From positions 1,488,001-1,552,000 of the forward strand of contig MU385710.1 in NCBI GenBank assembly GCA_022497155.1: a DNA stretch of 64,000 bases. Direction: 5' to 3'. A program made the translations under genes and the position numbers. Below, one piece after another: positions 13,744 through 57,903 of this stretch. Below the pieces are notes generated by a model. That model did not search any database. It was not told the origin of the DNA and saw only the letters and a list, made by a program, of their open reading frames with translations. Source of the stretch: Whalleya microplaca (lineage: Eukaryota; Ascomycota; Sordariomycetes; Xylariales; Xylariaceae). Within the stretch, counting starts at the first letter, position 1. The number at the start of each line of letters is the position of its first letter.

Positions 13744-16272
13744 TCATGCCATCATAGAATCGTCAAAGCAGTCATCTTCGAGGCTCTCGATGGCCTCTTT
13801 GATTTGTTGGCTAGCCTAGTTAATCTAGTTAGTAAAGAGCATACTCATAAGGAACACGGAAAGACAAACCTTGGGATCTAAGTTTAGCGCGATTGTGAAA
13901 TGTCGGACAGCAGACCCTTTGTCATTTAAGGTCTTATATAGTTTGCCAAGGAGGAAATGCACGGTAGCCTCGTCAGGGGCGAGATTCTTCAGAATCTCAA
14001 GCTCCTTCTGAGCTGCGTCAAGCTGATTGAGAGCCAAGAGCGCCCTGGCTTTCTTGTATCGAGTTTGTGCAGCATGAGGGGCAAGTTCGGTAGCTTTGCT
14101 GAAGTATTGGAGAGCTTGGACGATCTGTCGCTGCTTCTCGAGAACGTTGCCGATGCAACATATCAGGACAGCATTGGTAGGGTTTATGGCTGATGCTGAG
14201 TGGAAGTGTGTATACGCTTTGTCGTAGTTGCCGAGTTTTTCATAAACCCGGCCGATGCCATAGTACGCGTTATAATGGCGACGATCAGCTAATATGGCTT
14301 GGCGATATGCCGTGAGAGCCTTCTCATATTCCTCATTCGAGACATGCTCATGTCCTTGCAGAGTGAATGCATAAGCAAATTTGGGGTTCAGCTGCGTCGC
14401 TCTTTTGAAGCATCGTAATGCTTGCTCGTGATCTCGGGCGAGCGACCAGGCATTCCCTAGCGCGCACCATGCCTGCGGAGAATGCCACGAGGAGTCGACG
14501 AGTTCGTGAGCGAGGAAAGATAAGTCCGTCTCTCTTTTCAGAAACCACAAAATCGTGGAATAGACTTCCATGTCTTCGAGGCGAGTGGGGACCAAAATAC
14601 GTAGCCTCCTAAAGTACTTTTCTGCCTCCGCATATGCTGCTTGCTCATAGTATGCTCGCCCTACTTGCGAAAGCACCCAAGGCGTATCTTGATGCGCCGA
14701 CGGTAGCAAATTGTATGCTGCCAAAGCTTCAACGCATTGATATTGGGATAATGCGAAGTATCCGGAGCCGAATTTCTTCAGCAACTCCAGAAGATATTTC
14801 AAAGTCTCCTCTATCTTCACAGACTCGGGTTCCACGGGCTTGACAACCGGAACCTGAGGGAGACTTTCCTTGACTCGTGGTGCCTCAGCTTGATCGATAT
14901 CCATGACATTCTCCTCCAGGGGCTTTCTGTTGCCACTAACAGCTCTGCCGACCTGGGAGCTGACATAGGATGTGCCGGATATAGGTCGCATAAACTTAGA
15001 TCCGGGGGGCCTAGCCTTCTTCAATTCCCTTTCTCTCGTCGCTGCGGGACCAACGGTCGAAGTTACAGAATTGGCCTTGACGTGGGTGCCCTTGAGCCTG
15101 GTGCTCCTCCTTTGCGGCGCGCCAGGTTCTTCTGACTGTGGTCTGGGTTGGACGAGGTGACCAGATACCGTTCGTTTTCTTTCAATGCCAGTAACAGCTG
15201 AGCTGGAAGCCCTCAGGAAGGCTGGGTTGGAATCTGATGGTAGCTCGTCTTGGGGCTTATCCTGTAATCTCTGGGTTCTCTTGGTGCCGCCACGGTATCC
15301 CACCTTAGGGGCCAGATCAGCCAACCCAGACTCCACAGGTTGAGCATTCCTTGTTCTTCTCGGAGCTTGCGGAGGCTCCAGTGGAAAGGCGATTCGAGGA
15401 ATATTCGAATCCGTATTGCTGGATATCGGTGTTTCTGTGCTTTCGAGCCCCGGATCAGCAGAAGCTACCGTCCTAGAGCGAGCGGCGTTGATCTTGGACA
15501 TGAAATTATTGTCACCGGATCCCATTGAGAGAGAATTGTTACCAAGCATATCATTTGAGACTGCTGACCTATGCAGATCAAAAGGATCCGCTGTATCGAA
15601 TATGGCAGAACGAACAGAACCCTTCTTAGGCTGTGGCTCCAATGGATTGACTGCAGTGCTGTCTCTCTGCTCGGACAAGACTCCGCTCGGCTGATCACAA
15701 CTCAAGCTGGTAAGCAAAGTGTCGTGCACCTTGAATATGTTAGAGGTCCTGACATTCACACCCATGTCACACAGAGCAGTGAAGGCATCCCACATAAACG
15801 GGTTAACCTTTAAAGCTTCTTCGAAGTTGACAATGGCTTTCTTCTTATCGTCGTAGGCTCGATAGAGCTTTCCGAGCAAGCACGAAACACTTGCGGAATC
15901 CGGATGCTGTGCCCTGCTTGTTGCACTGTGTTTCCCGAAGCTGGTTTTGTGAGACCAGGCACCTCTGGTTTTCTCCAGCGCAGTAATGCCATCCTTGTGC
16001 CTTTCCAATATCAGGCATGTCTGTGCGAATATGTATGCACACCCAATATGACCTCCGCGGCAAGCCGATGCTTTGCTGAAGTCATACGCTGATCTATGAT
16101 CGCCAAGTCGAAAATGACAAAGGGCGAGTAGATATGCCGATTCGCTCGAGCGGGGGTCCTGGGCAGCTAATCTCTCAGCAAAGAAAAGCGCGTTGTCGTA
16201 AGATATGTTATCGAGATGGTAGTAGACGATCTGTCTCAGCTGGCCTGCTATGGCCGAAGTCGTCGGTGCCAT
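13744..16272 (-). CDS. CDC27: Anaphase-promoting complex subunit Cdc27/APC3 (BimA/Nuc2)
   Basis: Two exons, 16272-13870 and 13815-13744, encode 824 residues. The phase-0 intron of 54 nt sits before the last 23 codons. The start is the first in-frame ATG, giving MAPTTSAIAGQLRQ; the open frame upstream has no ATG. The product is the TPR scaffold subunit of the APC/C ubiquitin ligase, which receives IR-tail activators (Cdc20/Cdh1) and drives anaphase entry. An N-terminal APC3 TPR block covers about 1-180 (HLDNISYDNALFFAERLAAQ). A Ser/Pro/Arg-rich disordered region (~200-490) follows. Then come eight or nine consecutive TPRs to ~800, including AWCALGNAWSLARDHEQALR, AYYGIGRVYEKLGNYDKA and VHFLLGKLYKTLNDKGSA. 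The acidic C-terminus (ESLEDDCFDDS) is typical. It is divergent from the TMEM208 gene at about 1.05 kb. Confidence 0.95.
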
Positions 16273-17324
16273 GATGAGCTGACAGGGGGCGAATTGCGAG
16301 TGCGAGGGTTCGTGGGTGAATGGCACTATTCTCGACTGGCCATGTGGTCGCGTGGAGCTAACGATACAGCTCGACTACTTCGTTATAGACAGAAGCCTGA
16401 CCCAGGTGTCTGTAGAAGTGAGATCTCCGTGCACAGTAGCTGTGTTGTATGACTGCAAGGAACAGATACAGCCCAGCTTCTCGCGAGGGTGATTAGTATT
16501 ATTAAGGGCTTTCAAACGGCAATGTCGAAATGCCGGAAGGTCGTTCGGGGGAGATCAAAATGATCAGGTGGATTGAATAGAGCGAAATCTACGTCGTCTT
16601 GGTCTCTGGTTGGTTCGAGCGAGCATGTCTGATCACCGTAACGTGAATTCGGGGGTAGAGAAGAAAAAAATTGAGTTCCAATATCCTACCGGCTACCCAT
16701 CACAACAACAGGGACGAAAGCCGTAAGGGGACGATGAGGCGACAAGATTCTCCGGCAGGCAATCCAGCTTCCACACTCACAAGCCGCATACTCCAGGAAT
16801 ACCATGAACTGGCAAGGGGGGATCGAATATGGTGGTGGGATGAACGATAATAGCTTCTCATCTGGTCAACGTCCAAGCTTCCTCGCGACGATTTGGGATG
16901 TTGTGGTGGATGGCAGCGTCCCGGGCCTGATTGGCCGAATGTTGTCAGAATGAACCTGGCGGAGCAACAGCAGGCGCTAAACCCGACAGCCGCCCCCCCA
17001 GTCAGCCAGTAACGCCCCGCCACCCTTCAGCCGCTACCTACCCTTTCTACCTAAAGTATGTATGTAATAAACCATACATAGCGTACATATAGCCTTTCTC
17101 AACCTTGAGATGTCACCTCCAGCCTCAACATTAATAAACCTCAGCCACATTTTGGACGTTTTATCACCATCACCGTCAACTGATTAAAGTTTACCGGCCA
17201 CTCTTTTCTTCACGTACTACTCTCACTTATACGACCGGCAACACGAATCTCATACCTACGTACTTGATACATAAGGTAGTAGCAGGGAGAGTTTGTTCAC
17301 CTCATATTCCATCGTGATCACGCC
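16273..17324. promoter_or_regulatory. Divergent promoter region, CDC27 / TMEM208 homologue
   Basis: 1052 bp between divergent starts. It includes a pyrimidine-rich stretch at about 17100-17270 leading to the plus-strand start. No further gene or defined element is seen. Confidence 0.45.
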
Positions 17325-27560: not shown

Positions 27561-30500
27561 ATGGGGGATAGTCTGCCATTTGTAACGATAAGTACAAGGC
27601 AGCCCACGGATGGGAACAGCTTCAGCAGTGGGGATTCTGCCGTACGTCGAGACAACAACATCAGAACCAGGCCTCAAAACCGTTCCCGTCTAATCACAGC
27701 TTCTTCTCAGTATGGCTCTAGCGTGGGGGACGAGAGGGCGCCGTCGGCCACGCATGACATTAGTCGAGTCAACTATCACGTGAAGCATCTGCCTGAATTC
27801 GCGAGGACGCTCGAGGATGTGCGTTTCAACCTTTCCCTCAGATACTGTTAAGTCGCGGTCGTGATGATTATGTACAGAGCTAACGATATGGTTTAGTCTG
27901 CCACTCGCGCCTTTCCCACCAGGGGATCGTCACAGAGATACAAGAAGGTGCATGTCCTCCTTCTTCACTGGAGATCTGATGACCTCTTTGTCCTTCCCGA
28001 GTTAGAGGATCTCGAAACATGCTTTCGAGAGGACTACAGCTTCGAGACTGAGACGTTTCCGATCCCATCCGACAACGCGCACCTGGAGTTGATGTTGAGG
28101 GTTGGGGCCATGATCAAGGAACATGAATCAAGTGATACATTGTTCATTGTCTACTACGGCGGCCATGCGAGAATCGACGATTCTAGACAGAGCACGTGGT
28201 GCGCGTAAGTTATCAAACTGACATACTAGGTTTTTAATCTATTATACTGACGGTACGCATAGAACTCGAAGTTCGGATTCGCCTTGGCTGCAGTAAGTTT
28301 ACGCCTTGCTCGGCCGAGTCGCTTAAGTAAATTATATTGACTCTGGACACAGATGGTCTGCTATACAAACCTTGCTCGAGAGATCTCTCTCGGACGTTTT
28401 AATACTGCTGGACTGTTGCGCTGGAGCTGCCAGCGCTACCTTCCCTAATGGAAACAGCATCACCGAAACGATATCAGCGTCAAGCTGGGATGCTATCGCC
28501 CCGGATCCTGGAAGGTATTCCTTCACTAATGCTCTGATCGAGGTGCTTCAAGAATGGAAACGAAGGACATTCTCTGCAGCGATGCTGCATGCCGAGGTCC
28601 TAGCCCGCCTTAAGCATCCGAGGCCCATCATGCTGAACGGGAAACATTTCGAAGCACGGTCTACGCCCGTGCATTTCATGATGACTGCGAATCACAGAGC
28701 GCCGAGCATTGAGATGTCTCGGATACTTTCGGCAGATATGAGGCCACCCTCGCCTCCCCAAGAGCCGTCCCCGGAGCTCAACCCTGTGGGCCGATCTGCA
28801 GGTCCCCAAGACGTTGTCGGGTCCGAACCGAACGAGGACGTGCCGCATGTAATGATCTCTCTAGCCCTCGAAGAAGACCAGCGGCTCAACATCAATGATT
28901 GGGAGAACTGGCTTTCACAGATACCAGCGCTAGCCAAGTATGTCAAAGTCCAAGGAGTATTCAAAAGTCATTCGACATTGCTACTTTTGTCGATGCCAGT
29001 TATGGTCTGGGATTTGCTTCCAGAGAATCATGCGTGTAATTTTATAGCATTTGTTCGGTCGAATAACTTGGCCATCCGCAGCCACGGGGAACTACAACCC
29101 GTAGAAGAGGAGGTACAGACGGGTGCAGACATGGACGCGGATCTAAGGTCAATCTACTCGGGGACTACGGCGTATACTGCGGCGCCGTTCGAATCTACTG
29201 GAGGCGTCAGATTGTCCACAATATCTGCCATATCAAACAGCAAATCTCCGATAGAGCCATCCTACAGAAGTTTTGACAGACCAAGATTCGACTCGACGGC
29301 TAGAGGCTTTCGTCCCCCGTCAAACATATTATCTGGCCATTCGGAGAAGTCGCATAGATGGCCAGTCTCTCCTCATGGTTCACTAACAAGACGGGGTACC
29401 GCACCGCCTAGCATTCTGTCTAAAAGCGCGTCCATCGACAATATGTCGCAACAATCCAGCATGAACCAGCCCCGACACAGGTGGAATTCAATGAATTCCA
29501 TTGACGATCCAAGTTCACCCGGCCTGGCACCACATGTTCAGGCACGTCTTGAAGAATACTTCCAGAGCAATTCAAAACCTACAGTCGCTGTCAAGGAATT
29601 CCTAGCATCGAATCTGGGAATAGAAACCACGGATATTGATGTAAGTCCACAGGAACCAGAACATCCTCTACGCACTACACTATACTAACATGGCCTAGAT
29701 TTGGTTTTACCATCGTCGCGAGCAACAAGAGGTATCGAACAGGCTCCAGAGTCTGAGGATAGATGACCACAGCCATGAGGCTCCCAGGGAGGGTGCTCAA
29801 ATGATTTTACCTGGACACCTCAACAAACTGCTGGAGATCTTCCCGACGGGTCAAATGGTCATGATTGACCTCCGCTCACCAGCAGAATATGAGAGGTCGC
29901 ATATCCACGGCGCGATCAATTTCCGGGCTCCTGCGTCTTTCGTAGCGCGAGCCACCATGGAGATGATTGAACAGGCGCTGCCGGATGAGGCGAGTCGCAG
30001 CTCATTTACGAAGTGGTACACCAGTAAATGTGTCGTCTTCTACGACAAGATTGTCGAGTACGCCTGGGAAGCGCCGGCGGCCGAGGCGCTTTTCCACAAG
30101 TTCAAGAGCAAGGGCTGGACGGGGCAGTGTTTCGTGCTCAAGGGCCACTACCGAGAGTTCTCAACCTCGTTCGACAAGTACATCGTGGGCACGAACACTA
30201 CGGACAACGCCAAGGAGTACCTTGCAAGTCTTCAGGATGTCTCCTGGGAGAAGACGGTGAGCTCGTCGCATGAAGAAGACACCGATGGCATTGTGTTGAC
30301 CCTCAAGCAGAAGGACGACCACCAGCGGTACGACGAATGGCTCAAGCTTCTCGAAGGCGAAGATCGAGTTCAATCCATTGACCTTGTGCCTGCCGTGAAA
30401 GCGGAGCGCATCGATGCCATGGTGCGGTACCAGAAAGTAGTCGAGGATGAATTCGAGAAAAGGCTGCCGTTACTTTACAGGAAAGCGCTAGATCGCAAGC

Positions 30501-30865
30501 CCGACGACAACTGGACGATCAAGGGCCCCATGGTCGCGCACCTCGAACGCGGCATCTCCAAGATGCAAGAAGCCGGAAAGGGCATGGGGATGGGGCGATC
30601 CGGCGCGCCCCCGGAATTCAAGCTAGGCTACCGCGGGTATCCCACCATGGACAAGCTCTCGATGTCGGACTACGACCTGCTCGAGTCCGAGGACGAGCAC
30701 ATGACGCACGACCCCTCGGCGCAGAAGGGAGGGTCGGCGTCCGGGTCCAAGGCAGCCCCGCCGGAGGACACGGGCCCGGAGAAGAAGGGGCGGTCCGGCC
30801 TCGGCGGGGGTCGGAGCCTGCTGACGAAGATCATGCGGAGCGGACGGCCTGATCCGCCGCGGTAG
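27561..30865 (+). CDS. Caspase-like + divergent homeodomain + non-catalytic rhodanese fusion protein (1016 aa)
   Basis: Five exons, 27561-27818, 27897-28204, 28263-28292 (30 nt), 28353-29640 and 29699-30865, all phase-consistent. Residues ~100-330 form a caspase-like (clan CD, C14) fold. The beta strand VHVLLLHW is followed by IVYYGGHA with His176 and by VLILLDCCAG with Cys221, the usual His/Cys dyad. A Ser/Pro-rich linker follows (~330-585). Residues 590-640 match the homeodomain pattern: L598, F602, L620, W630-F631 and R635 sit exactly at positions 16, 20, 38, 48, 49 and 53, but position 51 is His, not Asn. Residues ~668-790 are rhodanese-like (MIDLRSPAEYERSHIHGAIN). The active-site Cys position is Asp744 (CVVFYDK), as in non-catalytic MKP-type rhodanese domains. 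The remainder is charged and Gly-rich. The function is unknown. A protease or pseudo-protease tied to DNA- or protein-binding modules is inference. Confidence 0.85.
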
Positions 30866-45618: not shown

Positions 45619-47099
45619 ATGCCTTACAATCCGAGGCGCTCGCCGCCTTCCCCTCACCAAAACACCAACCCTCCAAGCTATCTCTATCCGGATGAAGATT
45701 CCCCGGAATCAACATCCAGACCAGGTTCTAGCTCCGAGGACAATAAACTACCACCTATCCGACAGGTACGACCAACCGGCCTTAGTTGAAGAATCACACT
45801 GACACAAAGCCAGGCCCTCCCAGAATTCGACCTTCTTTTTCCTCCAGAGAGCTCGTCAAGGAGACTGCTATCTACGACCTCTCCTGGGGGCCATTTAACG
45901 GGTATAATTACTCCACCAGAATATGGTCATTCCCCAAAGGACCGCGAGAGGCAACGTTTTACTCCACCGAGGCGGCGCCCTTCTCCTCAAGGAGAGTATA
46001 CTCTTTATTCAGCCAATCACAAGAGGCGGCGCACATCTCTTGACGACGGTAGAGATATAGCAAGAGCGGGTCAAATCCCAAGAATATACCCTAGCCCGCT
46101 ACAAGACATCCCTCAAACACTATCACCAGTTGGCAGGTCGTGGTCATCGTTGTCGGGGAATTGCAGTAACGAGAGCCGGGATGGAAATGGTAGCATCCCG
46201 TCGATGTGCTCTCCCAGAAGCGTAGGGAGTCTCGAACGACGTCCCACCTTACCTAGTTTACCGAGGTTGGAATTTGATCGATGTACTGGTGAAAGGCACG
46301 TAGCTCGAAGCCAGCCTGTTCATGCATCCAATGGATACGCTACAGAAGCAGTGAGAAGACCGAGCCTCCCAAACAACAGCTATCGATTGGACGCAAGATC
46401 TCCCACATACACCTCACCCTTTAGTTACAGTTTCCATCATCCGAACCGAATACAGTCCCTTTCCGTCGGCTCGGTACTCCCATTCGACAGGATACCCTTC
46501 TCGCCAGAGGGCTATAAGCACCGATATAACGATCCCTTCATGCGTATCAACGAGTATGGTATGGGAGTGAGCGGCGACAGCAAGCAACGTAAGCGCCGAG
46601 GAAATCTACCGAAAGAGACTACCGATAAGCTTCGAGGCTGGTTTGTCAAACATCTCCACCATCCGTATCCCACCGAAGACGAGAAGCAGGACCTGATGAG
46701 ACAGACGGGATTGCAAATGAGTGAGTTGTGACGCCCAGATTTGCTTTACTTTGAAATATGTTTCGAAATGATGTTCTGGATTACCAGAGACAGCCGGGGC
46801 GCAAGATGAAGTGCAATTTGAAGACTGTTGTCTGGGATTACTAACTTTGCAACTTAACAGATCAAATATCAAATTGGTTCATTAATGCGAGGCGCCGGCA
46901 ACTACCGGTCCTCATGAACAACGCTCGTGCTGAGTCTGGTGCGAGGAACGGGCGTGGCGTAGAGGGCAACGTGTTATCTTCACCCGAACGGACTGGCCAC
47001 GAACGCGATGGAACGCATCTAAGCGATGGCGAAGTTGAGAGTTTCAACAGACCCCTGGCATGCAGTCCCGGTACCAACGGCCAGCGTGGTAGCATATAA
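45619..47099 (+). CDS. TALE-class (KN-type) homeobox transcription factor
   Basis: Three exons, 45619-45765, 45814-46720 and 46861-47099, encode 430 residues. The first intron is 48 nt (phase 0). The second is 140 nt and splits an Asn codon inside the homeodomain. The N-terminal ~300 residues are Pro/Ser/Arg-rich and probably disordered. The homeodomain begins after the basic stretch KQRKRRGNLPKE. It has the three-residue loop extension with Pro-Tyr-Pro (HHPYPTEDEK) and helix 3 reads ISNWFINARRRQLP, with Trp48, Phe49, Asn51 and Arg53 intact. It should bind DNA. TALE factors in filamentous fungi regulate development and differentiation, but I cannot say which orthologue this is. The gene stands alone between gene-poor tracts of 14.7 and 5.2 kb, typical of regulators with long control regions. 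Confidence 0.93.
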
Positions 47100-50000
47100 G
47101 GACACAGTATCATTAGTTTTGGGAGCGTGGTTATATTCTTATGTATAGCATTGAGTTGGAATATTGCACGCGTTAGGAATCGGTTAAGGAGTATATTTTA
47201 TTCGCGCAGCGGCGACACGAATCGGCACTTGGTTTCGGGAATGGCCATACCGATACGTTGGAAATTTCGATTAAATGACTTTTTACAAAACAATTATTTG
47301 CATTCAAGCGACGACCGCTCCCACAGGTCTTCAGATGTCTATTAGCAACTCAGCGCCCGGCGTCTACAATAGTCAGATATAGGTAGCAGGCGGCGCAGGC
47401 CGAAAAAAAGAAAAAAAAAACCTCCAGTATGTCAACTCAACTGAAGCACTCTTTGGCGACAAGTGTTACTCAAGCAAGAATACTGTATGATATTAACAGA
47501 CAGGCATCCATGCTTCTCGCTCCAGTTGAGGGAGTATTTCGGCTGAGTTGAACGTACTCCTCGCCTGAATTTTCAGTGAAGCATGCCCGTTAGCTATATC
47601 TGGAGCTGAACTACGAAGTACTAGATATTCTGGAGACCAATAGGGGATCTAGTCAGTCCAATAAACCGTTTCAGAGATTATCGCTAACAATTACCAGGTC
47701 AAGGAGTTGGTGTTTGGGCTTTAAAATGGTTGGCATGCGTGTGGATTATTTTGTCAATTGCTTGACGACTGCACATTACTGGAATTGGGTTGGGAGGCGC
47801 CTTCGAATACAGGAAAACCGGATACACAGGAGCATTGCGCGGCTTGGGTGAGGATTTCGAATAGAGCGAGATGGTACATGAGAACATCGCTGTGATAGAG
47901 AAGACTGCAAAATGCGGCATCGGATGACAAACACCGACATTAGGTATCAGGCGCCCAGAGCCAAGGGTGATCGATTTTTACGTGTATTGGTCTTTCTCGT
48001 CCTTACATGAGGCATGCGTTCTTCAGCATACACTGGGGCCTGTTCCGAGCTACATAGGAGATCGCTTGGCAATCAAGATATCTGCACTGTCCTCCCATCG
48101 CAACCCCAGGGGATATATTACTTGCATACCGCCTTTCCGATCGATAGATTAACTGCACATGTCCGCGGGTATGGTGTTGTGGCTTCCTCGAAATCTGTTG
48201 GCTACCAAGAGTTCTGTCCGTCAAGGCCGCCTAATCTCGCCGCATCGCACAGTTTCATGGGGTCAGTCGAGTATACCAGTCGGTGGGAGCCACATCTGGA
48301 ACGGATCGGATGACGACAGACATTACAAAACAGCTGACGTGCTCCAATGCTCGAAGTAAAGTTGTGCTTCCGAGTATGCGTGCTTACAAATTTGCAACTG
48401 TCGTGACATTCACCGTGCCGATCGTATATATAAAGGGCCATGTCTTACTGGCTCGGTAATGGATTCGTACCAACCTGGAGCAATAGGAATGACCACTCTT
48501 GAAACAAGAGGCGGGATCTAATCAACTCTAGAACGAAGCACAACAGCTGGACTGCCCCCACACATTCACACAGATCTCAGAAATCTGACCCTATACCCCC
48601 TCGATAGTATAGCTTCAGTGTCGTGTGTATGGTATGATGGCGAACTACGGAGGTTTCCGCCTCGGGAAGAGGCTTTTCACGCTATGGATAAGATCAGACC
48701 AGCAATACGTAGAGGTAGAATCTCGATGGTGCTGCTGACGAGGAGAATCGAGCTTATCTTCGCTGATGAGGAGAATGAAGTTTATCTTCGTCTAGTAAAT
48801 ACTCTAGTGTCTGACACGTCCCGTAGAAAGATGGGCGCAAGAAGCTTTTCACAAAAGTCCGTGCGACGCCGTTACGCCGTTATGTATGTATAAGTGAATG
48901 GTAGTACGGTCCTCTGGGTAGCTAGCTCGCCAAATACCTTAATGAGAGACATGGCGTTCATCGGACAAAACCCAAGTCAATGTCTTTCATCTCTATCATC
49001 TGTCAACTACGATGTCTTGCTCCAACCCCCAAACTTGTCTGAGAATGACAGCCTCTAGAACGTCTCACTTGAGCCTCACTGAAAGAATGCCAGTGTCATA
49101 TATATGTAAGCCTCGTCAATATAGCCCCGAAAACCTAGGGGTGGCCTCCGGTGGCGATACATTTCGTTTCTTCGGGCTATCTTGTATGTAAGATCAGACA
49201 CTATAATAGCGGCCATGTTCTGCAAAGTTTGTAGCCCCATGCCTGATGGTTGGAGTTAGGATGGGACGGAGAGCGCTTAGATGAAGAGGATATGGTAGTT
49301 CTTGATTTGCTTACCCGTGTAGTTCTAGCTTAGTGACGGTTGACCTAGTTCTAGATTCACTCTATAGGAGATCTCCACAGTGCTGTGAACGGAAAGAAGA
49401 TGCCGAGTCTAGATCATTAATAAGTCTGGTACATAGTATACCATGCATAGGTTTTGCTGACCTCCCTCCTCCATACATAGTAGGTATATTCATGGGTAAA
49501 GTGTAAGTTGTTAGTCACGCTAGATAGGGCAGCTGGTTAACTGTAATTGGTTACCTAGTGCCGCGATACATGCCCAGCTAGGTAACTGTCCGGTCTGAAC
49601 TCAGCTCTGACTGGTCCCGACGCTTACTGGTAGCAGGAGATGGTCCGTGCAACATTTATTTGTTACCGCTTACATGGTGCCATCCTCTACTACATCCGAT
49701 CCCAGGGCTCGTTCGGCTGGGAACTTTCCCCTGACCACACCCTCAAAACCTAAAGAGACAGCACTGGGGAATTAAGAAGCTAGCTGACCGAGGGACCACA
49801 GACCCTGATATTCAGTGACCAGGTCACAAAAGTACCTACCGAAGCAAGAAAGGATATGAAGTTCTAACTGTCTCTACAACAGAACCCTCGTCTAGATAAC
49901 ATTACATATCAGCCATGCCCAGACGCTAAATCTAATAAGACGGCGCCGAACGGTATGTGTGCAAAAAGAAAAAAAAAAAAAAAAAAAAAAAAGATTGCTG

Positions 50001-55924: not shown

Positions 55925-57903
55925 TTATGTCAGTTGGATTACTGAGGCAAATACGCCGTCTATACTGGGAGGATATCCCTCCACGATACCTAGTCTTCGA
56001 TACGTTGCCTTAGTTCCCTGAACATGACGAAGTACGAGCCCCGGACCTTTAGTACCACAGAGGATATAGACGTTTGCGGGATTTTCAGGCCTACAAACAA
56101 GCTCCGACGCGACGGCTATGAGCCAGCTATGTTTTGACAAACCGGTGACTTGAATCCACCGGCTCTGCTTCTCATCGCATCCGCCCCAGGCACGAGCCTC
56201 TGTTAGGACACCGCGGACCGTTATAGCCCTCGCAGAGACCTCGGCCAGCAGATTCGGTTTACCGTGTTCGTACGCTACCTCGATTACCTCGATCCCTTCA
56301 AACTCTTGTTTGCTAGGACTATATCGGAAGGGGCCGTGGACGGACGCCCACGACCACGACGGCATAGCCTGATCTGTTGAGCGCTTCGTCGTGACATCGT
56401 AGTAGTCACGGAACGACCGGTCGAGTTCCCAGAATAGATCGGAGACCATGGTGGGCTCCCAGAGTCCATTGACGTACCGACCGAGATCCTTGTCGGCGAA
56501 GAGCTGCGTGATTCCGGCTAGGGCTGGCAGCTTGTCGGTGTCAAACGAGATCCCCTTTCTCGAGTACGCTTCCACTATGTCCTTCCACAGGCGATGTAAC
56601 TCCGTCTTGGAGCCGCTGCGTAGCTCTAAGTCGAAGCGAGCCTTCAGGTCGCTCGTGGAGTAGACCTCGCGCGTGCTCTCACTGAACGTCCCGCAGTTGC
56701 ATAGTCGTTGGGACAGGCATACCCAGAGGATCTCCCAGCGTGTGAATGATAGCACGCGGGGCGCTAGTAGGTACTCTGAATTTCCCCCTGTGTTAGTAGG
56801 GAGTTCCCTTTTTTAGGACAGTGCTTGTCTTGTCCCAGTAACTTACCTTGGAAACACCATGCTCGTTCAAGCAAGGGCGCCGACTCCGATGACTTTAGGC
56901 CGTAGGAGGTGTTGGAAAAGTACGAAGAGTGCTCTAGCGACGGACGAACGTTGATTGTCGTCAGTTGGCCATCTTGACCGCAATGCTCAATGATGTGTTT
57001 GACGCTATGTGGGGTGTGCTGATAGAAAAGACCGCTAGAACTATTGATAGAGGCTGTGGCCGCGATAGTGACGTAAGAGTTACCGTACACCTCCGCCATA
57101 CGTGATGCTTCCCTCTTCCAGTCATCGGTACTATCTTGGATAATACATAAGGAGTCGATCCATATGTAACGGCATTGAAGTTGTTGCGTGATGAAAATGG
57201 CATCCTGGAAGGTTTTTGGTAAAGACTCTATCGAGATTCCTGCTTTGAGCGTATCTAAGGTCGCCATAGTTGTTCGGATAGGAACAATACCGCCCCAACA
57301 GTGACTGAGGGCTACGTAATGGCCCCTATCTGTCTTGTCCGGCTCATATAAAAGGACATGGCCCTTCTGGCGTGAGACATCTAATACTCTGGTAGGAAGG
57401 TGATCTTCCAAGCGATTCTTGCAGACATCATGGCTTTTACAACAAGTCTCAACCCAGTCTCTCACTTGGCCAAGATATTTGGCACTTCCTGTGTATGGCT
57501 CAAGATCTCTGCTCGGCTTGAAAACATCAGATAGCGGGCACCGGGCTGATCCCAAAAATTAGTTAAGCACGGGTTTCTAATCCCACCTAGCTAAACACAT
57601 CCCCATAGATAGTACAAGCAGATACATACAGTCTTTCGCGTAGAAATGTAATCCGGTCCATCGCTCGTCATCTGGCAATAGCTTATACTCCAGTCGAAAG
57701 GCATCGTCTTCTTGGCGCAGCGCCATCCACTGAGCTGTGCTAGGCGATTCGGAGCAGAAAGCTGATAGACCTTCCCAGAGAATCGAGCAGAAAGTACAAG
57801 AGGAAGACGAGTTCTCCAGATCAGTGCCCTTCCCGCCGGTGATGAACCCGCCGGATGGACCTGGGAGAGGAATCAGATTACGGCAGACAGAGCAAGAATC
57901 CAT
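55925..57903 (-). CDS. HET-domain (heterokaryon incompatibility) protein
   Basis: Three exons, 57903-57630, 57545-56847 and 56775-55925, give 607 residues. The N-terminus carries two CxxC pairs (MDSCSVC and SCTFCSILW), a possible small zinc-binding lead. The HET domain (about 168-325) has its three usual blocks: YVALSHCWGG at 168, LPKTFQDAI followed by YIWIDSLCIIQD, and MAEVYGNSYVTIAA. It continues to ERAWCFQEYLLAPRVLSF, which is completed by the second splice. The C-terminal half (SWSWASVHGPFRY) is the common companion region of fungal HET proteins. Family members trigger cell death when incompatible hyphae fuse, or act in immunity-like responses. This one has no NACHT, ankyrin or WD part. 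Partner and allele status cannot be judged from the sequence. All core residues look intact. Confidence 0.92.

Follow-up and report, generated by a model that had tools for sequence, protein, structure and literature searches.

Homeobox genes of the HOX4/PAH7 class are the closest described counterparts of the gene analyzed here, which lies on the forward strand of a 64,000-nucleotide stretch of DNA from the Xylariales fungus Whalleya microplaca (contig MU385710.1, positions 1,488,001 to 1,552,000, assembly GCA_022497155.1), termed the window. In the accessible parts of the published reports, PAH7 and NCU00100 (PMC5666362) are given as orthologues of MoHOX4, a homeobox combined with a rhodanese is described as characteristic of the class and no A. 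flavus orthologue is reported (PMC5666362), and the same combination is noted in Colletotrichum and U. virens. Deletion leads to smaller conidia in M. oryzae and, for CsHOX4, to larger, abnormal conidia in C. scovillei, while an altered distribution of perithecia is the sole phenotype given for Podospora. A second related plan is that of the bacterial EACC1 and EACC2 systems, in which, according to the accessible text, the N-terminal caspase is constant and the C-terminal domains vary; autoproteolysis is proposed by the authors, and the EACC1 system includes a partner gene whose product has a transmembrane helix.

The window gene is an orthologue of MoHOX4/PAH7. Its product matches MGG_06285 (MoHOX4, match P0084) with 54% identity over 90% coverage, a further match (P0333) carries the name pah7, and the homeodomain is followed by a rhodanese, with no difference in architecture seen from MoHOX4, PAH7, NCU00100 and CsHOX4. 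The original prediction, made from the DNA letters, knew of no characterized protein with this architecture; MoHOX4, PAH7 and CsHOX4 had already been deleted and phenotyped in the reports cited above. The architecture contains an N-terminal caspase-like module in addition to the two domains described as characteristic of the class, and its elements are as follows.

27561..30865, forward strand: whole gene, 5 exons (27561-27818, 27897-28204, 28263-28292, 28353-29640, 29699-30865) encoding 1016 amino acids
27927..28728, forward strand: caspase-like protease core (residues 97-324) with introns 2 and 3 inside it, assigned from the fold and from PF00656 in orthologue P0091
28164..28166, forward strand: codon of His176, candidate catalytic histidine from alignment conservation
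28411..28419, forward strand: Asp219-Cys220-Cys221, with Cys221 the candidate catalytic cysteine and the acid two residues upstream
28828..29076, forward strand: β-α-β-β-α-β domain, residues 358-440, paired with the caspase in relatives
29077..29511, forward strand: disordered linker, residues 441-585, from alignment columns and the predicted local distance difference test score (pLDDT) of the structure model
29149-29169, forward strand: SxxSGTT motif in the linker, residues 465-471, from alignment columns
29503..29740, forward strand: homeodomain, residues ~583-642, split by intron 4 (29641-29698), with His633 in the place of Asn51
29792..30184, forward strand: MKP/Pyp-type rhodanese, residues 660-790, with Asp744 where active rhodaneses have Cys
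30203..30580, forward strand: helical C-terminal region, residues 797-922, from the structure model

All four introns are bounded by GT..AG and measure 58-78 bases, and the spliced product is identical end to end to the deposited Whalleya microplaca protein P0001. A protein search with this product gave 369 matches at E <=0.001; the 120 best (including P0001) were analyzed and underlie all counts out of 120 below. In 115 of these, each of the four domains (caspase, α+β, homeodomain and rhodanese) is covered to 80% or more, and in 114 no marker position lacks a residue. The genera among the matches include Xylaria, Hypoxylon, Apiospora, Pyricularia, Colletotrichum, Chaetomium, Madurella, Podospora, Purpureocillium, Sporothrix, Diaporthe and Discula. 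The prediction of a single protein with three fused domains and a His/Cys dyad is borne out by the fold, profile and alignment matches.

The N-terminal region has a caspase (clan CD) fold by structure comparison, with the dyad residues placed after two neighboring core strands (His176 after strand 167-173 and Cys221 after strand 213-218 in the structure model). This is the common arrangement of the caspase/paracaspase superfamily (MALT1, caspases and metacaspases), whose solved structures among the matches listed share 10-16% identity with the window domain; unlike these proteins, the window caspase is joined to a homeodomain and a rhodanese, and its protease activity is predicted. PF00656 is not among the matches of the window protein at E 10 in the profile scan and lies above cut-off in P0091 (one of eight proteins scanned together) and in several relatives. 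The predicted dyad is conserved throughout: His176 is kept in all 119 of the best 120 rows having a residue there and Asp219 and Cys221 in all 115 such rows, and the three are present in 30/30 divergent relatives. Across the best 120 matches the caspase is the best-conserved part of the protein, above the homeodomain, and as judged from its residues the domain looks intact. An acid two residues before the catalytic Cys occurs in MALT1 and metacaspases, and its presence here suggests, by analogy, a preference for Arg or Lys at P1, with cutting after these residues.

The homeodomain has the expected fold, superposing on engrailed with a template modeling score of 0.88 and a root mean square deviation of 0.6 (E 0.04), and matches the Pfam profile at E 2.1e-8. 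Numbering is conventionally set by W48, which is present in 120/120 matches, and R53 is kept in 111/120. To our knowledge, Asn51 is nearly invariant in canonical sequence-specific homeodomains. The window protein has His633 at this place, and position 51 is His in 101 of the 120 matches, with Gln in 7, Asn in 6 and Leu, Tyr and Arg in 2 each. Because His replaces Asn51 both here and in most orthologues, canonical DNA base contact appears doubtful. The action near chromatin first suggested leans on this domain and is to that extent overstated. The genome has seven further homeodomain genes listed; of the six that were examined, five keep Asn51 and one (L020) has Tyr.

The rhodanese has the MKP fold, and its best matches in both sequence and fold are DUSP6, DUSP16 and DUSP10, then Cdc25, with the fungal Pyp-type protein tyrosine phosphatase (PTP) rhodaneses also among the closest; the nearest one found in the same genome belongs to a rhodanese and tyrosine phosphatase protein (L034, 29%, E 4.3e-16). 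Unlike the DUSP, Cdc25 and PTP proteins, the window protein has no phosphatase domain, and position 744 is Asp in 108, Ala in 11, Ser in 1 and Cys in none of the 120 matches; the catalytic Cys of active rhodanese sulfurtransferases is absent. The kinship with MKP and PTP proteins probably accounts for the annotation of some orthologues as "tyrosine-protein phosphatase non-receptor type 6". Paired basic residues form the kinase-interaction motif of the mitogen-activated protein kinase docking domains of MKP type. The corresponding DUSP6 motif L-R-R aligns with V-A-R in the window protein, 92/120 have S, Q or E at position 711 and 68/120 have R at position 712, so the paired basic motif is not conserved in the best 120 matches. 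Of the phosphatase-derived docking domain first proposed, the phosphatase-type kinship and the fold stand, and the docking residues do not.

Residues 435-585 have pLDDT <50 in the structure model. Within this linker the SxxSGTT motif is strongly conserved (S465 110/120, S468 109/120 and T471 112/120), and a basic stretch lies near 570-577 (N570 84/120 and R573 84/120). At the other end of the output half, the helical C-terminal region has 52% mean identity over 791-930 in the best 120 matches. The C terminus itself (30788-30862) is a basic, partly hydrophobic tail in which a K/R pattern recurs across 24 aligned rows and R1008 is nearly invariant; this tail may serve as a nuclear signal or in membrane contact.

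The module formed by the caspase and the α+β domain is not confined to this class. Relatives lacking the HOX4 C terminus carry the same module on other domains, identified by Pfam scans and in some cases by the precomputed Pfam column only. DNA-binding-type partners are a homeodomain with WFQNRR (P0289), C2H2 (P0270), Zn2Cys6 (P0304, P0284) and Clr5 (P0218), with bZIP below cut-off in P0302, P0285, P0287, P0296 and P0293; other partners are C2 (Fusarium), RA (P0273, P0292), TPR (P0311), WD40 (P0319), YDR124W-like helices (P0303 and others) and DUF3295. The family thus follows the EACC1-type plan of an N-terminal caspase with variable C-terminal domains, and the NF047832 profile matches residues 122-277 of the window protein at E 2.1e-7 (30.7 bits, where the cut-off is 140). 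As far as domain composition indicates, the fusions to DNA-binding-type domains suggest protease-controlled gene regulators.

No second near copy of the window gene was found in its own genome, which holds more distant members of the family. One (L035) joins the module to zinc-finger-like repeats with a weak C2H2 match (E 0.007, under cut-off). Read by eye, the dyad is kept in L036 and L038, and both residues look replaced in L037 (961-2298, C47), which is likely a pseudo-protease. L038 (C2:849500-855000) adjoins kinase-like reading frames, also read by eye, and no Pfam domain was found in the one piece of it scanned.

In a tree of 56 rows, the 15 HOX4 members sampled form one clade with support 100/100. 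The Leotiomycete protein P0289 (PAC_19200, Phialocephala) has a caspase module 51% identical over 266 residues and also a homeodomain. It differs from the window protein in keeping WFQNRR, no rhodanese was found in its domain scan, and its caspase branches elsewhere, in a separate clade with Zn2Cys6 and bZIP-like proteins. Grouping P0289 alone with HOX4 was rejected by the tree test, and grouping its whole clade with HOX4 was not. Placing 14 domain labels on the tree takes 18 changes (minimum 13) compared with 34 in shuffles, indicating that most outputs pass down within a clade, with several exchanges from one clade to another.

The class is already known from the earlier HOX4 work and from database hints: the three Pfam domains are all precomputed for P0091, and UniRef gives the name "Caspase domain-co..." to P0130, which is half of a Colletotrichum orthologue. 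As far as searched, neither the caspase half nor the modular family has been described. The accessible parts of the HOX4-class literature make no mention of the N-terminal caspase, the lost Asn51 or the lost rhodanese Cys; the word "caspase" was not found in the full text of the Podospora, PMC5666362, C. scovillei and U. virens papers, nor "protease" and "rhodanese" in that of the M. oryzae paper. The fungal combination of caspase, homeodomain and rhodanese was not found in the literature, a weak absence as it covers open-licence papers only.

The reading we favor, with a probability of about 0.38 as a whole, is that of a regulator triggered by cleavage, because the protein joins a protease-type N-terminal module with an acid before its Cys, a disordered linker and an output half in which no enzyme site of its own is visible. 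The constant module would be tethered by the linker to the divergent homeodomain, the rhodanese lacking the catalytic Cys and the helical C terminus. A developmental or stress signal would activate the caspase-like domain through self-association or ligand binding, and the activated domain would cut its own linker or a partner protein after Arg or Lys. Cleavage would free or re-tune the homeodomain-rhodanese half, which may act mainly through protein contacts in the nucleus on spore size and fruiting-body pattern. Several observations weigh against this. The model has pLDDT 53-69 in blocks 221-230 (next to Cys221), 241-250 and 281-310, and the basic linker stretch is not universal, 36/120 matches lacking N570 (4 of them gaps). 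The dyad is replaced in L037, and S and R occupy position 176 in two rows outside the 30 divergent ones; since some family members have lost the dyad, the module can persist without catalysis. The strong conservation could instead serve a binding surface.

The main rival is a non-proteolytic scaffold in which the caspase-like domain is a binding platform, as in Raptor, and the whole protein acts as a constitutive signaling scaffold. With Asn51 and the rhodanese Cys lost, the remainder of the protein resembles a set of binding domains, the dyad is replaced in L037, and the Raptor_N profile weakly matches relatives. The best such match seen has E 1.9e-5 and 25 bits, and all those seen are below the cut-off of 27; moreover, a mere platform accords poorly with His, Asp and Cys kept in every orthologue row with a residue there and in 30/30 distant relatives, so we consider a scaffold possible but somewhat unlikely.

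The assumption of the HOX4 literature, a conventional homeobox transcription factor that recognizes specific sequences and has additional domains, is improbable. The fold, the Pfam match, W48 and R53 agree with it, as do the reported developmental phenotypes, but Asn51 is found in only 6/120 matches compared with five of six other homeodomain genes of the genome, and the caspase rather than the homeodomain is best conserved. Less probable still is an effector of cell death or non-self recognition with the caspase as executioner. The caspase fold and the resemblance in plan to bacterial conflict systems fit such a role, but genes of this kind are expected to change fast, whereas this one is strongly conserved and has no second near copy in the genome. 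The published deletions affect spores and fruiting bodies, and the accessible texts contain no death or incompatibility phenotype, so the cell-death regulator first suggested is not upheld. A mistaken fusion of two adjacent genes by the splice model is in the main refuted. The N-terminal half does stand alone in some Colletotrichum and metagenome records (P0127, P0130 and others), but 115 of the best 120 matches cover all four domains, and a transcript break at intron 4 would split a conserved domain, as this intron lies inside the homeodomain.

Returning to cleavage, we tentatively propose, while holding it to be somewhat doubtful, that filamentous ascomycetes possess an undescribed family of protease-tethered regulators with a constant caspase and α+β module and varied outputs (homeodomains probably twice), in which controlled proteolysis would switch gene programs and MoHOX4/PAH7 would be the branch whose Asn51-less homeodomain makes protein contacts. 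Regulated proteolysis that frees transcription regulators is best known from membrane-held factors. If the proposal is true, a caspase fused directly to DNA-binding-type domains of several kinds would represent another design, on a plan like that of the bacterial conflict systems, and the old homeobox knock-outs (MoHOX4, PAH7 and CsHOX4) become a testable protease question. Caution is also due with the annotation, since a gene catalogued among homeobox transcription factors lacks the key DNA contact.

Approximately 15 kb downstream of the HOX4 gene, the window contains a TALE homeobox gene (45790-47100, forward strand; Homeobox_KN E 1.6e-10) with WFINARRR in its second exon. From the Ile-Asn motif we infer that this may be pah5. 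Podospora pah5 and pah7 are described as "tightly linked" in the accessible text; the TALE neighbor here matches that linkage, so this pair of developmental homeobox genes seems to have remained together. Elsewhere in the window, the reverse strand encodes a HET (heterokaryon incompatibility) domain at 56767-57558 (E 1.2e-31) and, at 13828-16374, a TPR protein that matches ANAPC3 (E 1e-32) and is probably the Cdc27/APC3 subunit.
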